From positions 124,001-188,000 of the forward strand of contig NZ_CP018258.1 in assembly GCF_001953175.1 (NCBI RefSeq): a stretch of DNA of 64,000 nucleotides, in the 5' to 3' direction. The position numbers and the translations under genes are program-made. The stretch comes from Dehalogenimonas formicexedens. Its GTDB lineage: Bacteria; Chloroflexota; Dehalococcoidia; Dehalococcoidales; Dehalococcoidaceae. Of the stretch, positions 1 to 29,597 are shown in pieces (positions within the stretch are counted from its first letter, which is position 1; each line of letters starts with the position of its first letter). The notes beneath the pieces are model-generated. The model was not told the DNA's origin. It saw only the letters and a program-made list of their open reading frames with translations, and ran no database searches.

Positions 1-2863
1 CTTGACGGTGAAGGTCTCGTCAATGGAGGCTGAATTGACAGCGCCATTGAAATCGATGATCTTGGTGATCTCGAGGGAGCCGGGGACGTAATCATTGGTG
101 ACGTCAGCGGTAGCCTTGACGCCGGCACTGACAGCGACCGCAGAAGCGGGAACGGTCTCGGTCCACTCGGCACCGGCATCGACTTCGGTGATGGTGTAGT
201 CGCCGGGGATGAGGCCGGTGAGGAGCCAAGGATTGGGCGCGACGATGGCGCCATTATCCAGGACGAACTGATGGGTGGTGCCCTCGCCGGGGTAGGAAGG
301 ACCGACTACCTTGACGGTGAAGGTCTCATCAATGGAGGCTGAATTGACAGCGCCATTGAAATCGATGACCTTGGTGATCTCGAGGGAGCCGGGGACGTAA
401 TCATTGGTGACGTCAGCGGTGGCCACGCCACCGGCGCTGACAGCGACCGCAGAAGCGGGAACGGTCTCGGTCCACTCGGCACCGGCATCGACTTCGGTGA
501 TGGTGTAGTCGCCGGGGATGAGGCCGGTGAGGAGCCAAGGATTGGGCGCGACGATGGCGCCATTATCCAGGACGAACTGATGGGTGGTGCCCTCGCCGGG
601 GTAGGAAGGACCGACTACCTTGACGGTGAAGGTCTCGTCAATGGAGGCTGAATTGACAGCGCCATTGAAATCGATGACCTTGGTGATCTCGAGGGAGCCG
701 GGGACGTAATCATTGGTGACGTCAGCGGTGGCCTTGACGCCGGCGCTGACAGCGACCGCAGAAGCGGGAACGGTCTCGGTCCACTCGGCACCGGCATCGA
801 CTTCGGTGATGGTGTAGTCGCCGGGGATGAGGCCGGTGAGGAGCCAAGGATTGGGCGCGACGATGGCGCCATTATCCAGGACGAACTGATGGGTGGTGCC
901 CTCGCCGGGGTAGGAAGGACCGACTACCTTGACGGTGAAGGTCTCGTCAATGGAGGCTGAATTGACAGCGCCATTGAAATCGATGATCTTGGTGATCTCG
1001 AGGGAGCCGGGGACGTAATCATTGGTGACGTCAGCGGTAGCCTTGACGCCGGCACTGACAGCGACCGCAGAAGCGGGAACGGTCTCGGTCCACTCGGCAC
1101 CGGCATCGACTTCGGTGATGGTGTAGTCGCCGGGGATGAGGCCGGTGAGGAGCCAAGGATTGGGCGCGACGATGGCGCCATTATCCAGGACGAACTGATG
1201 GGTGGTGCCCTCGCCGGGGTAGGAAGGACCGACTACCTTGACGGTGAAGGTCTCATCAATGGAGGCTGAATTGACAGCGCCATTGAAATCGATGACCTTG
1301 GTGATCTCGAGGGAGCCGGGGACGTAATCATTGGTGACGTCAGCGGTGGCCTTGACGCCGGCACTGACAGCGACCGCAGAAGCGGGAACGGTCTCGGTCC
1401 ACTCGGCACCGGCATCGACTTCGGTGATGGTGTAGTCGCCGGGGATGAGGCCGGTGAGGAGCCAAGGATTGGGCGCGACGATGGCGCCATTATCCAGGAC
1501 GAACTGATGGGTGGTGCCCTCGCCGGGGTAGGAAGGACCGACTACCTTGACGGTGAAGGTCTCGTCAATGGAGGCTGAATTGACAGCGCCATTGAAATCG
1601 ATGACCTTGGTGATCTCGAGGGAGCCGGGGACGTAATCATTGGTGACGTCAGCGGTGGCCACGCCACCGGCGCTGACAGCGACCGCAGAAGCGGGTACGG
1701 TCTCGGTCCACTCGGCACCGGCATCGACTTCGGTGATGGTGTAGTCGCCGGGGATGAGGCCGGTGAGGAGCCAAGGATTGGGCGCGACGATGGCGCCATT
1801 ATCCAGGACGAACTGATGGGTGGTGCCCTCGCCGGGGTAGGAAGGACCGACTACCTTGACGGTGAAGGTCTCGTCAATGGAGGCTGAATTGACAGCGCCA
1901 TTGAAATCGATGACCTTGGTGATCTCGAGGGAGCCGGGGACGTAATCATTGGTGACGTCAGCGGTGGCCTTGACGCCGGCGCTGACAGCGACCGCAGAAG
2001 CGGGAACGGTCTCGGTCCACTCGGCACCGGCATCGACTTCGGTGATGGTGTAGTCGCCGGGGATGAGGCCGGTGAGGAGCCAAGGATTGGGCGCGACGAT
2101 GGCGCCATTATCCAGGACGAACTGATGGGTGGTGCCCTCGCCGGGGTAGGAAGGACCGACTACCTTGACGGTGAAGGTCTCGTCAATGGAGGCTGAATTG
2201 ACAGCGCCATTGAAATCGATGATCTTGGTGATCTCGAGGGAGCCGGGGACGTAATCATTGGTGACGTCAGCGGTAGCCTTGACGCCGGCACTGACAGCGA
2301 CCGCAGAAGCGGGAACGGTCTCGGTCCACTCGGCACCGGCATCGACTTCGGTGATGGTGTAGTCGCCGGGGATGAGGCCGGTGAGGAGCCAAGGATTGGG
2401 CGCGACGATGGCGCCATTATCCAGGACGAACTGATGGGTGGTGCCCTCGCCGGGGTAGGAAGGACCGACTACCTTGACGGTGAAGGTCTCATCAATGGAG
2501 GCTGAATTGACAGCGCCATTGAAATCGATGACCTTGGTGATCTCGAGGGAGCCGGGGACGTAATCATTGGTGACGTCAGCGGTGGCCACGCCACCGGCGC
2601 TGACAGCGACCGCAGAAGCGGGAACGGTCTCGGTCCACTCGGCACCGGCATCGACTTCGGTGATGGTGTAGTCGCCGGGGATGAGGCCGGTGAGGAGCCA
2701 AGGATTGGGCGCGACGATGGCGCCATTATCCAGGACGAACTGATGGGTGGTGCCCTCGCCGGGGTAGGAAGGACCGACTACCTTGACGGTGAAGGTCTCG
2801 TCAATGGAGGCTGAATTGACAGCGCCATTGAAATCGATGACCTTGGTGATCTCGAGGGAGCCG
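1..2863 (-). repeat. 309-bp coding tandem repeat array
   Basis: The unit boundary word ctaccttgacgg recurs at 306, 615, 924, 1233, 1542, 1851, 2160, 2469 and 2778, always 309 bp apart. This gives nine full units plus a partial one, continuing beyond base 1. Units differ at only a few positions and fall into types: A encodes SAGGVATAD, B encodes SAGVKATAD, and C encodes SAGVKATAD with TKIIDF and different silent bases. The order by position is C A B C D A B C A, where D looks like an A/B/C hybrid. The array ends near 2863, where sequence diverges into a related but older domain. Confidence 0.95.
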
Positions 2864-4344
2864 GGCTTGAAGGTGTTGGTCACGGTACTGGTTGCGGTTT
2901 GCCCGCTATTTACAGTGACACTGCCGCCTCCTGTAACGGTCCATTCAGCCCCAGGATTGTCTTCTGAAACGGTATAGGAACCGGGAATCAAGCCTTCAAG
3001 AGTCACAGATGTTGGAGATTGCAAAACACCATTGGTAAGTGTAAAGGTGATGTCGTGCGAATAACCACCGGGCCCGGTAACGTGAATAGTGAATGTTTCA
3101 CTGATACCGGCAGGGTTAACTACGCTGCCAAGAACAACACTTTTGGTAACAGTTAGTTTGCCGGTGCCGTAGTTGAAGAAGTTGTTATTGGCACTTACTG
3201 GGGCGGGTGATGTTAATACTATCCCAGAAATTGTGCCATTGGCAGGGAAGGAATGAACGAAGTTCTCATAACCAGCCGGGATGCTCGCCCCATTTTCAGG
3301 GGCTTCTTTTACCGAATAAGTGCCATAGGGCAAATTAGTGAATTGATAAAAACCATTAGAATCCGTTACGGTTGAAACTGTGATGGGTACACCCTCAACC
3401 GTCGCGTACAGTTTTATCGGCCACCCCGGGATGCCGACATCTCCGGCAGTGAATGTCCCAGAGACATCTTTATCGTTGTATTTATACCCGGATATGACGC
3501 CGTTAACAACTGCGCCGCTGGGAAGTTGGAAAGTCTTCAAACCACTGTAAACGATAGAACCATGCAGTGAGGAACCGGGATAGAACCCAGCGCCATTGTA
3601 TTGGGCAGTCCAAGGCCGATCGAACGTTGTTGGCGTGCCTCCAGACCCGGGATAAACGCCATCAATTTGCGGCAGCAAATTTTCCGCCCCGTGGCTCCAA
3701 ATAAAGGTTAGAGCCAGGTGGGGTTCAAAGTAGATTGCAAGAGATTCCCCGGGCTGCAACATAGTTGGTGGTGGATTAACATCGAACCCACCCCAAAAAT
3801 GGCTGGCCGCGGGAGCAGTCTGGCTTTCCGTTGTGATATAAGAGTCGGTGCCGGGATCCCAAGGCATATTGATCACCTTAGGGGTGAACGGAGTCCAACC
3901 GGTTTTCCAATCACTTAAACCAATATCATCGCCAGCGACATGACCTGTGTATGGGTAACGGTCACTCGGTCCATCGCCCGCAACGAAGTATGCGCTGGGA
4001 GTCATGCTCCACGCTAAGTTTTTAACCCAATCGACTCCCACGGTTCCAGAATTATAAAAATCCAGAATGAACCCGAAACCAGAGATATCGATGGCTGCTG
4101 ATGTGCCGTTTGTGATCAAAATCTGAGATTGCCAATAATCCCCTTCAGGATACTCGCCATAGTTGCCATTACCCCAAACCTGGGCATTTGGTCCATTTCG
4201 CCAGCCGAGGCTTGTCTGAGTAACGCTGCCGCCGGCGGCGTCTGTCTTAGTCGGCCCGATAGCGGCGAAAAGCATGGCCATCGTCGCAAGTAGACCGGCG
4301 GCGATAATTGCCACTTTGTAGAAAAGGGTCTGCTTCTTAGTCAT
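1..4344 (-). CDS. Giant secreted repeat protein, SpaA/CnaB-like (3' end outside window)
   Basis: A reading frame from ATG 4344 stays open to the left edge (about 1448 codons) and is in phase with the 309-bp repeats. AGGAGG lies 5-6 nt before the ATG. The N terminus has Lys residues and a hydrophobic segment (about residues 9-28), a likely signal peptide. About residues 35-280 form an uncharacterised, probably exposed domain rich in Trp, Gly and Asn. A SdrD_B/prealbumin-like domain follows (GYKYNDKD, then NLPYGTYSVKE), then one diverged and at least nine near-identical 103-residue repeats with GLIPGDYTITEV and VTNDYVPGSLEITK. The Lys, Glu and Asn positions fit CnaB-type isopeptide domains (inference). 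It is probably a surface stalk or adhesin. The C-terminal anchor is not visible, so its attachment is unknown. Confidence 0.85.
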   Translation of the reverse strand, partial: MTKKQTLFYKVAIIAAGLLATMAMLFAAIGPTKTDAAGGSVTQTSLGWRNGPNAQVWGNGNYGEYPEGDYWQSQILITNGTSAAIDISGFGFILDFYNSGTVGVDWVKNLAWSMTPSAYFVAGDGPSDRYPYTGHVAGDDIGLSDWKTGWTPFTPKVINMPWDPGTDSYITTESQTAPAASHFWGGFDVNPPPTMLQPGESLAIYFEPHLALTFIWSHGAENLLPQIDGVYPGSGGTPTTFDRPWTAQYNGAGFYPGSSLHGSIVYSGLKTFQLPSGAVVNGVISGYKYNDKDVSGTFTAGDVGIPGWPIKLYATVEGVPITVSTVTDSNGFYQFTNLPYGTYSVKEAPENGASIPAGYENFVHSFPANGTISGIVLTSPAPVSANNNFFNYGTGKLTVTKSVVLGSVVNPAGISETFTIHVTGPGGYSHDITFTLTNGVLQSPTSVTLEGLIPGSYTVSEDNPGAEWTVTGGGSVTVNSGQTATSTVTNTFKPGSLEITKVIDFNGAVNSASIDETFTVKVVGPSYPGEGTTHQFVLDNGAIVAPNPWLLTGLIPGDYTITEVDAGAEWTETVPASAVAVSAGGVATADVTNDYVPGSLEITKVIDFNGAVNSASIDETFTVKVVGPSYPGEGTTHQFVLDNGAIVAPNPWLLTGLIPGDYTITEVDAGAEWTETVPASAVAVSAGVKATADVTNDYVPGSLEITKIIDFNGAVNSASIDETFTVKVVGPSYPGEGTTHQFVLDNGAIVAPNPWLLTGLIPGDYTITEVDAGAEWTETVPASAVAVSAGVKATADVTNDYVPGSLEITKVIDFNGAVNSASIDETFTVKVVGPSYPGEGTTHQFVLDNGAIVAPNPWLLTGLIPGDYTITEVDAGAEWTETVPASAVAVSAGGVATADVTNDYVPGSLEITKVIDFNGAVNSASIDETFTVKVVGPSYPGEGTTHQFVLDNGAIVAPNPWLLTGLIPGDYTITEVDAGAEWTETVPASAVAVSAGVKATADVTNDYVPGSLEITKVIDFNGAVNSASIDETFTVKVVGPSYPGEGTTHQFVLDNGAIVAPNPWLLTGLIPGDYTITEVDAGAEWTETVPASAVAVSAGVKATADVTNDYVPGSLEITKIIDFNGAVNSASIDETFTVKVVGPSYPGEGTTHQFVLDNGAIVAPNPWLLTGLIPGDYTITEVDAGAEWTETVPASAVAVSAGVKATADVTNDYVPGSLEITKVIDFNGAVNSASIDETFTVKVVGPSYPGEGTTHQFVLDNGAIVAPNPWLLTGLIPGDYTITEVDAGAEWTETVPASAVAVSAGGVATADVTNDYVPGSLEITKVIDFNGAVNSASIDETFTVKVVGPSYPGEGTTHQFVLDNGAIVAPNPWLLTGLIPGDYTITEVDAGAEWTETVPASAVAVSAGVKATADVTNDYVPGSLEITKIIDFNGAVNSASIDETFTVK

Positions 4345-4405: not shown

Positions 4406-4430
4406 TTTTTGTCTCTTTTCGCTGGTCCAA

Positions 4431-4470
4431 AAAAGAAAAACCGGTCCGAAATAGCTTTCGGGGCCGGTTT
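4431..4470 (-). terminator. Intrinsic terminator 1 in leader of giant gene
   Basis: On the minus strand an AAACCGG/CCGGTTT outer stem (4464-4470 with 4438-4444) and a CCGAAA/TTTCGG-type inner stem surround a 4-nt loop. They are followed by a U-rich run, UUUUUCUUUUUU (4440-4429). The upstream arm of the stem shares bases GGUUU (as AAACC, 4466-4470) with the pseudoknot of element 1, so pseudoknot and terminator cannot form fully together. Confidence 0.75.
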
Positions 4471-4530
4471 CACCATTTGCTCCTCGCCGCCGAGGTGACC
4501 AGATTACAGGCGGCAGATCATCGCGTCCCA
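4464..4530 (-). promoter_or_regulatory. Structured leader element 1 (candidate riboswitch aptamer)
   Basis: Minus-strand RNA can form helix P1 (4514-4509 with 4491-4486, GCCGCC/GGCGGC). The P1 loop segment GGUCACC (4500-4494) can pair with downstream GGUGAAACC (4474-4466), giving an H-type pseudoknot directly overlapping terminator 1. A mini-ORF AUG AUC UGC CGC CUG UAA (4521-4504) spans the 5' side of P1. Element 2 has the same layout with compensatory changes. I do not recognise it as a named riboswitch class. Confidence 0.6.
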
Positions 4531-4557
4531 TGTATAGATCATGGTACCTGGACCAGA

Positions 4558-4580
4558 CTCAAAACCTCCTCCGTTTTGAG
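4558..4580 (-). promoter_or_regulatory. Hairpin with GGAGGAGG in the loop
   Basis: CTCAAAA (4580-4574 on the minus strand) pairs with TTTTGAG (4564-4558) around the loop CGGAGGAGG. This is a 7-bp stem displaying a perfect anti-16S sequence. It lies between leader elements 2 and 1. It may be a ribosome-standby or SD-decoy site, but the function is not known. Confidence 0.4.
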
Positions 4581-4630
4581 ACTACCTAGGTAACGCTACT
4601 ATTGTTGAGGCCGTCGGGCGGCGAATACAA

Positions 4631-4668
4631 TACGTAAAATTACTTATTTTTGGAGCCAATTTTACGTA
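4631..4668. repeat. 11-bp perfect inverted repeat TACGTAAAATT
   Basis: tacgtaaaatt (4631-4641) and aattttacgta (4658-4668) are perfect inverted copies separated by 16 bp. They could form an RNA hairpin in the leader of the giant gene or a DNA operator. The 11-aa candidate ORF at 4640-4675 lies almost entirely inside it. Confidence 0.6.
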
Positions 4669-4675
4669 CTGCCAT
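4640..4675 (-). CDS. Candidate 11-aa leader ORF
   Basis: ATG 4675 is preceded by AGGGG and encodes the basic peptide MAVRKIGSKNK, ending TAA at 4640-4642. It lies inside an 11-bp inverted repeat, so its translation would affect folding. Chance occurrence is possible. Confidence 0.25.
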   Translation of the reverse strand: MAVRKIGSKNK

Positions 4676-4682
4676 TGCCCCT

Positions 4683-4733
4683 GGTTTATTGCCTCCTCCA
4701 AAACAATAAACCGGCCTTACGTCAGGCCGGTTT
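4683..4733 (-). terminator. Terminator 2 and mutually exclusive SD-loop hairpin
   Basis: A perfect 10-bp stem (4733-4724 with 4717-4708, AAACCGGCCT/AGGCCGGTTT on the minus strand) is followed by a moderate U-rich run (AUUGUUUU). The 3' half of this stem overlaps GGTTTATTG (4712-4704). That segment can instead pair with CAATAAACC (4691-4683) in a 9-bp stem whose loop contains GGAGGAGG. The two hairpins compete, which suggests a switch rather than a plain terminator. Confidence 0.6.
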
Positions 4734-4795
4734 CACTACTTGCTCCCCGCAACCTAAAAGTGACCAATTACAAGCTGCGGATCATTACATCCTGG
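4729..4795 (-). promoter_or_regulatory. Structured leader element 2 (paralogue of element 1)
   Basis: P1 is CCGCAGC/GUUGCGG (4780-4774 with 4753-4747) and the pseudoknot helix is GGUCACU/AGUGAAACC (4765-4759 with 4737-4729). Relative to element 1 one P1 pair changes from C-G to A-U, and the closing P2 pair changes from C-G to U-A, both keeping pairing. The mini-ORF here is AUG AUC CGC AGC UUG UAA (4785-4768). It is upstream of element 1 in the transcript and has its own terminator. Confidence 0.6.
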
Positions 4796-4800
4796 AATTA

Positions 4801-5099
4801 CCATCGTAAGACTAGAACATATGTAAAATCAAGATGCCGTAACCTCACTTTAACTCACTTTTTGAAGCATTTTGAAAAAATAGAGATGAATCATAGGCGG
4901 GTAAGTCATGATGGCGGTCAAAGAAACCTTACAGATCGTAATGAAATAATTAGAGAATCGAGGTTATGAAGGCCGCTTTTTTCAGTGTTTTACCCACCCA
5001 AGATGCGTAGAAGTACGTATTGTCAAAGTATAGATTTGAGTATAGCCTGTCATTAAGGGAATTCATCTTTTGCCTCCTCCCGTGTGAGGATACCGATAA
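4801..5099. other. AT-richer spacer upstream of leader elements
   Basis: This stretch is visibly AT-richer than its surroundings. A possible minus-strand -10 (TACATATGTT) lies near 4815-4825, but no convincing -35 is seen. Besides the 38-codon minus-strand frame at 4950-5066, a plus-strand frame from 4911 reads 12 codons to TAA and then continues open to 5033. No known gene was recognised. Confidence 0.4.
4950..5066 (-). CDS. Candidate 38-aa ORF with perfect ribosome binding site
   Basis: GGAGGAGG (5080-5073) lies 6 nt before ATG 5066, an ideal spacing. The frame encodes 38 residues starting MNSLNDRLYSNLYFD and ends TAA at 4950. It contains many Tyr, Phe and Asn residues and resembles no family I know. 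It could be the first translated leader ORF of the giant gene's transcript, or a small independent gene. It abuts the divergent DedA gene start. Confidence 0.35.
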   Translation of the reverse strand: MNSLNDRLYSNLYFDNTYFYASWVGKTLKKAAFITSIL

Positions 5100-28655: not shown

Positions 28656-29597
28656 TTACGAAGAGGCAACCGAGTCCGCAAAGCCGGCCGGCTGGCCGGA
28701 ATCCGTACTGGTGCGGTTCTTGCCCTCTTTTTTACTGCGGTACAGCAGGGTATCGGCACGGCGGGTCAAGGATTCGGCGTCATCTTCGGCGGTGGCGATG
28801 GTCGCCCCCGCCGATACCGTGACTCTGATCTCATCGTCGCCCCGGACGATGAAAGAAGTCGCCACCAGAATCCGCATCCGCTCAGCGATGTCGTAAAGCT
28901 GCCGGCCGTTTACGTTCGAGGCCAGGATGACGAATTCTTCGCCTCCCCAGCGGAAGAACAGAGAAGCGGGGCTGCGCATATTGTCGGAGATCGAGCGGGC
29001 GACCATTTGCAGCGCCTTGTCTCCGGCGTCATGACCGAAAGTATCGTTAACTACCTTGAAATTATCGATATCGAACATGATCATGCCGAAGGGCCAACCG
29101 TAGCGCTTGAATTCACTCAACCTGGTTTCCAGGGTGATATTGGCATAACGGCGGTTGCCGGCCTGGGTAAGTTCGTCGATCAGCGACAGGCTTGTCAGAT
29201 GGGCGTTCTGTTCCTTGAGAAGCCTGTTCGCCGAGTTGTCGGTGAAAGTCTCGATGCCGCCGGTGATATTACCCTGTTCGTCGTAAACCGGCATGGCTTT
29301 AACCGTTACCGGAACCCGATGGCCGTCCTTGTGCAGCATGTAGACCGAGGCTTCATGATACCGGCCGTCGGTCATCATGGCGGAGAGGGGGCAACCGGAG
29401 AGGCACAGGTTTGCGCCCTGTTCGTCGGTGTGGACCAGGATGTTGTCGGCGCAGCAGAAACCCAACACTTCGCCCGCCGTACGCCCGGTCATTCTCTCGG
29501 CGGCTTTATTCCAGTACAAGATGCGCTTATCGCGGTCGACGAAGTACACCCCTTCGCTGAGGTTGTCGAGGAGCGTTTTGTAAATGGCGTCTTGCAT
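28656..29597 (-). CDS. PAS-GGDEF diguanylate cyclase
   Basis: The 313-residue protein has an N-terminal PAS domain (about 5-118) and a GGDEF domain (about 135-300). The active-site motif GGEEF is at 218-222 and intact, with the metal Asp-containing FDIDNF at 175-180, so it should make c-di-GMP. The PAS domain carries a Cys/His pattern (C48, C49, H56, C65, C69, in the form CCADN-H-G-NLC-SGCPL) that could bind a metal or sense redox. No transmembrane segment is visible. A -10-like TATTCT lies 10 nt before ATG 29597. Confidence 0.9.
   Translation of the reverse strand: MQDAIYKTLLDNLSEGVYFVDRDKRILYWNKAAERMTGRTAGEVLGFCCADNILVHTDEQGANLCLSGCPLSAMMTDGRYHEASVYMLHKDGHRVPVTVKAMPVYDEQGNITGGIETFTDNSANRLLKEQNAHLTSLSLIDELTQAGNRRYANITLETRLSEFKRYGWPFGMIMFDIDNFKVVNDTFGHDAGDKALQMVARSISDNMRSPASLFFRWGGEEFVILASNVNGRQLYDIAERMRILVATSFIVRGDDEIRVTVSAGATIATAEDDAESLTRRADTLLYRSKKEGKNRTSTDSGQPAGFADSVASS

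Follow-up and report, generated by a model that had tools for sequence, protein, structure and literature searches.

Two modules, each with a hairpin, a pseudoknot and a terminator, precede the gene of a giant surface protein in Dehalogenimonas formicexedens, and the question raised by this locus is whether its leader is a new kind of regulatory RNA or a doubled form of a known one. An earlier note on this DNA matched the modules to no known class, and named c-di-GMP-II among those excluded. We addressed the question in a 64,000 nt stretch of the genome, here called the window (the genome is a single contig of 2.09 Mb), and in the genomes of relatives. As judged from sequence, the locus is a real and very probably functional tandem c-di-GMP-II riboswitch.

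A covariance-model search of the window with all 4227 Rfam families placed both modules above the curated gathering score of c-di-GMP-II (RF01786, 53.5 bits), over model positions 1-84 of 84 and with E values of 2.8e-12 and 4.4e-10 for the whole window and all families. Both are, by this assignment, canonical c-di-GMP-II riboswitches, and the class is known, not new. The match refutes the novelty claimed for the modules and leaves their proposed function standing; c-di-GMP, which had been suggested as a candidate ligand, would fit the class. At the family threshold, the two copies in the window are the only ones in the whole D. formicexedens genome. No match to c-di-GMP-I (RF01051) was found in the window, nor in 11 genomes of the family, the latter in a search run without a positive control. 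Coordinates of the features are collected in Table 1. The extent of 4429-4795 given in the earlier note located the element properly and was slightly short, as evident from the limits of aptamers and terminators (the latter end at about 4700 and at 4429).

Table 1 Features of the tandem c-di-GMP-II locus, in positions of the window
Feature	Position	Strand	Details
Weak candidate promoter	4803..4832	minus	TTGATT-N18-TACGAT, directly 5' of the upstream aptamer; 8/12 matches, equalled by 29% of shuffles
Upstream c-di-GMP-II aptamer (element 2)	4716..4801	minus	RF01786, 65.1 bits; own-order model, 75.8 bits
Intrinsic terminator of the upstream switch	4700..4733	minus	stem 4733-4708, 10 pairs; fold -18.5 kcal/mol; 5' arm AAACCGGCC is the 3' strand of the aptamer pseudoknot/P1
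Linker	4538..4715	minus	178 nt; three hairpins
Downstream c-di-GMP-II aptamer (element 1)	4455..4537	minus	RF01786, 57.3 bits; own-order model, 73.0 bits
Intrinsic terminator of the downstream switch	4429..4470	minus	inner stem 4461-4446; fold -18.9 kcal/mol; 5' arm AAACCGG overlaps the pocket strand
Regulated gene, 2119-aa secreted surface protein	1..4344, on beyond the window to genome position 121985	minus	start 4344
GGDEF domain of PAS-GGDEF protein	28713..29183	minus	GGEEF motif intact

The two paralogous tandem modules and their helices were found on the minus strand as previously described. In element 1, the hairpin pairs GCCGCC (4514-4509) with GGCGGC (4491-4486), and the pseudoknot pairs GGTCACC (4500-4494) with GGTGA(AA)CC (4474-4466). 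The hairpin of element 2 is formed by CCGCAGC (4780-4774) and GTTGCGG (4753-4747), while its pseudoknot, at 4765-4759 and 4737-4729, is identical to that of element 1. The helix earlier termed P1 is the hairpin of the c-di-GMP-II class, and the pseudoknot with its overlapping terminator represents the ligand pocket and expression platform of this class. The class pseudoknot, GGTCAC with GTGA(AA)CC and two unpaired A's beside CC, is present in both modules, and these A's are conserved family-wide. Both modules also carry the pocket strand AAACCGG, and with it the conserved pocket nucleotides of the class (AACCG), which we take to be A69, A70 and G73 of the c-di-GMP-II crystal structure. The outer stem of element 1 contains mismatches and its score is just over the threshold; because of these two features, its affinity could be lower. 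A pairing of CTGGTCC with GGACCAG around module 1 was also considered and judged likely to be due to chance.

Riboswitches of the c-di-GMP-II class are present in 41 of 156 genomes of the order. To characterize covariation, 80 RF01786 copies from the order, the two in the window included, were aligned without structure, and the class structure, with its pseudoknot, was then counted. In this set, somewhat biased towards structure because the copies were gathered by a structure-aware model, 91.4% of cells are paired, compared with 80.7% in shuffles. Changes on both sides are shown by 18 of the 22 pairs, and double-change cells amount to 229, whereas shuffles gave 84 and sliding the partners gave no more than 60. 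The signal is above every shuffle and every slid control and is strong for all helices, in line with the covariation first noticed between the two modules. Pseudoknot cells are paired in 95.7%, the AACC pocket motif is invariant, and the next G is conserved in at least 90% of copies. The sole departure of the pseudoknot from the Rfam consensus, a U-A instead of a G-C pair, is common to most of the order.

A terminator scan disclosed two sites, both on the minus strand, compared with 0.8 expected. The overlap of pseudoknot and terminator proposed for each module was confirmed, the pocket strand being at the same time the 5' arm of the terminator. Furthermore, a 3' arm complementary to the pocket strand and followed by a T-rich tract recurs in 71 of the 80 copies, compared with 4 of 80 with shuffled flanks. 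The U-tract of the upstream terminator is interrupted (TTTATTGTTTT). The fold predicted for both modules, by a method that cannot model pseudoknots, is the terminator state, as expected for the ligand-free form.

These elements suggest the following switch logic. Transcription would start just 5' of the upstream aptamer. At low c-di-GMP, nothing would keep AAACCGG(CC) in each aptamer from serving as the terminator 5' arm, and RNA polymerase would halt behind one module or the other. Bound c-di-GMP would hold the pocket strand sequestered in the pseudoknot, and therefore binding should block termination and transcription would go on. In this way each module, equipped with an expression platform of its own, would act as an ON switch. 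Such polarity agrees with Clostridioides difficile: its four class II switches are all ON switches, and the targets of three are adhesins, known or putative (PMC6200980). Full-length mRNA would require read-through at both modules, which makes the predicted leader a same-ligand, pseudo-cooperative AND gate. The steep-response arrangement suggested previously is found in the anatomy, two aptamers each with its own terminator, while steepness comes from calculation only: with two gates that are equal and independent, the ligand range spanning the 10-90% response would shrink from 81-fold to about 40-fold. Since leaks multiply when gates stand in series, the chief benefit in this simple model is probably a tight OFF state.

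Tandem doublets were observed in three further genomes of the genus (G004, G009 and G010), ahead of other secreted proteins. Both units are complete in all three, and linkers are 172-188 nt long. Between G004 and G009, which are different species, first units are 90% and second units 96% identical; orthology of first and second units is resolved only for this close pair, other identities being uninformative. A shared neighbourhood of the tandem loci was rejected, as 12 fetched loci contained no ORF matching those in the first 20 kb of the window, a set from which the giant gene, cut by the edge, was left out. In another family, two c-di-GMP-II switches about 300 nt apart are separated by a small reading frame, and the frame after the second switch is related to the one in between (G044; L107:491-956). 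This pair is apparently a duplicated switch-plus-gene cassette, comprised of two single-gene switches.

In the family of D. formicexedens, 8 of 11 genomes carry a c-di-GMP-II riboswitch, and the own-order model, built from the 80 copies, revealed two additional diverged relatives. A third, decayed copy was found in the D. formicexedens genome (G000:C1:1706650-1706728; L125:1501-1579; L132:3151-3229), retaining the promoter and the 5' half while the pseudoknot 3' strand and the terminator are lost. It lies about 60 nt 5' of a gene for a 652-aa glycosyltransferase (cellulose synthase-related, with a PilZ domain), followed by a gene for a GH26-like protein, an arrangement suggesting that a glycan synthase regulated by c-di-GMP once also had a riboswitch, since lost. 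In G005, a diverged copy precedes glmS (G005:C1:749285-749363; L109:1374-1452); it scores 28.1 bits with the own-order model, has no Rfam match and is missing the 5' conserved segment, with GGTCAC/GTGAAACC and the terminator retained. The second glmS of the same genome is preceded by a canonical c-di-GMP-II copy (L063:12611-12694). The diverged glmS leader is possibly a variant, or else a switch in decay.

In each of the four loci of the genus that carry a tandem, a promoter-like site precedes the first unit at a fixed distance; G010, G009 and G004 match the promoter geometry better than the window does. For the second units, the promoter scan turned up no convincing candidate at the corresponding distance in any of the four. 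The sequences would most simply be read as one transcript that crosses both gates.

In the linker, the 3' arm of the terminator and its U-tract build a first hairpin, whose loop carries GGAGGAGG. The further hairpins are ACGTAAAATT/AATTTTACGT and CTCAAAAC/GTTTTGAG, the latter also with a GGAGGAG box in its loop. These Shine-Dalgarno-like boxes are not accompanied by any evident gene, and no conserved ORF was found in the 178 nt of the linker; the boxes are possibly vestigial ribosome sites, derived from a duplicated switch and start region. The sequence GGAGGAGG, without an obvious start codon, stands right after the first terminator in D. formicexedens, G009 and G004, and inverted repeats of the TACGTA type recur in linkers of the tandem loci (the window, L059, L060 and L061). 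A mobile-element origin of the linker was rejected, since D. formicexedens has a single copy of its DNA and the sole recurring part is a 30-nt piece in G005. The inner linker motif was also dismissed as a widespread element, having no wide distribution.

Combining these data, we consider it highly probable that the locus comprises two independent canonical ON switches in series, behind a single promoter and in one leader of the giant surface-protein gene. It is very improbable that the modules belong to a new riboswitch class or to a c-di-GMP-II variant with a changed ligand (such as GAG/GCG variants or a mixed cyclic dinucleotide). A new RNA class is ruled out by the RF01786 match. Variant families do exist in the Rfam clan of RF01786 (for their names see PMC12452182) and give lower-scoring overlapping matches here, but neither module scores higher with any of them than with the canonical family. 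Altered specificity was rejected on the canonical pocket strand, AAACCG, present in both, with the order-typical U-A as the only pseudoknot departure.

The number of working modules and of transcripts could also differ from the preferred reading. One module could be functional and the other a decaying duplicate, adding a constitutive terminator or nothing. The third copy in the genome, devoid of pseudoknot strand and terminator, indicates that such decay occurs in the genus, and element 1 has its outer-stem mismatches; however, full pocket, pseudoknot and terminator are kept in both modules, and complete doublets recur in G004, G009 and G010, with the high identity of both units between G004 and G009, so that we regard this possibility as unlikely. 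We give a similarly low probability to two transcripts, in which an internal promoter would let the second module act alone while the first yields only a short RNA. The long linker with its hairpins and Shine-Dalgarno-like boxes is consistent with such a scheme, but it holds no conserved ORF, and second units in the four loci are not preceded by a convincing promoter-like site at the usual distance. Two switches in series on one transcript thus remain the preferred interpretation.

The gene under this predicted control encodes a protein that has a signal-like segment at its N-terminus and contains 103-aa repeats, 12 in number and nearly identical. Pfam recognizes DUF5979, SdrD_B and SpaA in this protein. 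We infer that it is an adhesin. When genome contigs were searched for homologues of its N-terminus, the sole match was weak, covered 43 residues and came from an Alistipes MAG. Three targets of other switches in the family were scanned and contain repeats of DUF7507 and DUF11; one of the three also matches SpaA weakly. At the DNA level, the 12 nearly identical repeats are 309 bp long (306-2726 on the minus strand, on to genome position 121985) and are likely prone to recombinational changes in copy number. A 22-codon reading frame (MKQNTINDILGVVYDIKGGEND; 4405-4337, minus strand) follows the second terminator and overlaps the start of the giant gene (ATGACTAA), with possible translational coupling. 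A short leader frame likewise precedes the switch target in L072.

A possible source of c-di-GMP is the PAS-GGDEF protein encoded in the window, one of two GGDEF proteins in the genome, both with an intact GGEEF motif. GGDEF and HD_5 (HD-GYP-type) proteins are present in all 11 genomes of the family, as are reductive dehalogenase genes, while EAL is found in none of the 11 and PilZ in a single one, D. formicexedens. Because GGDEF is present in all of these genomes and PilZ in only one, riboswitches may be a main c-di-GMP output in the family; as only 8 of the 11 carry a riboswitch, c-di-GMP must have other outputs in the remainder. A broader proposal, which we advance with slightly less than even confidence, is that c-di-GMP in these organohalide-respiring Dehalococcoidia acts largely via RNA, with class II switches, doubled for a sharper response, as a main recognizable receptor over giant repeat surface proteins, PilZ-type receptors almost absent, and the switch recruited to new jobs (glmS in one species). 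No mention of Dehalogenimonas together with "cyclic di-GMP" was found in the literature library searched. The locus offers a concrete, testable c-di-GMP output for a little-studied family with strong environmental use, and a pointer to what c-di-GMP controls there.

With RF01786, both modules share the full-length match, P1, hairpin, pseudoknot, pocket strand and overlapping terminator platform, and differ in nothing class-defining, only in the order-typical U-A pair. Same-ligand switches in series are also known from the triple-tandem c-di-GMP-I Bc3-5 of Bacillus thuringiensis (PMC4759541), where the RNA is of class I, with another fold and three units. Adhesion genes are under c-di-GMP ON control, as predicted here, also in C. 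difficile, where class II switches govern pilA1 and surface proteins (PMC6200980); that organism has four switches, one per gene. A later survey indicates that c-di-GMP riboswitches tend towards tandem occurrence (PMC12452182). The closest arrangement, tandem class II switches before surface-anchor genes, has already been reported: 59 doublets and 9 triplets, most of them ahead of the surface-anchor protein COG4932, in Paraclostridium and relatives (PMC9481103). The locus studied here is a further example, with two complete class II switches before a surface protein, a SpaA-type domain and a predicted steep response, in organohalide-respiring Dehalococcoidaceae and not in Clostridia. The tandem probably arose separately from the Clostridial cases, and this apparently independent doubling outside Clostridia lends support to the view that steep or tightly closed control by c-di-GMP is favoured at surface-protein genes.
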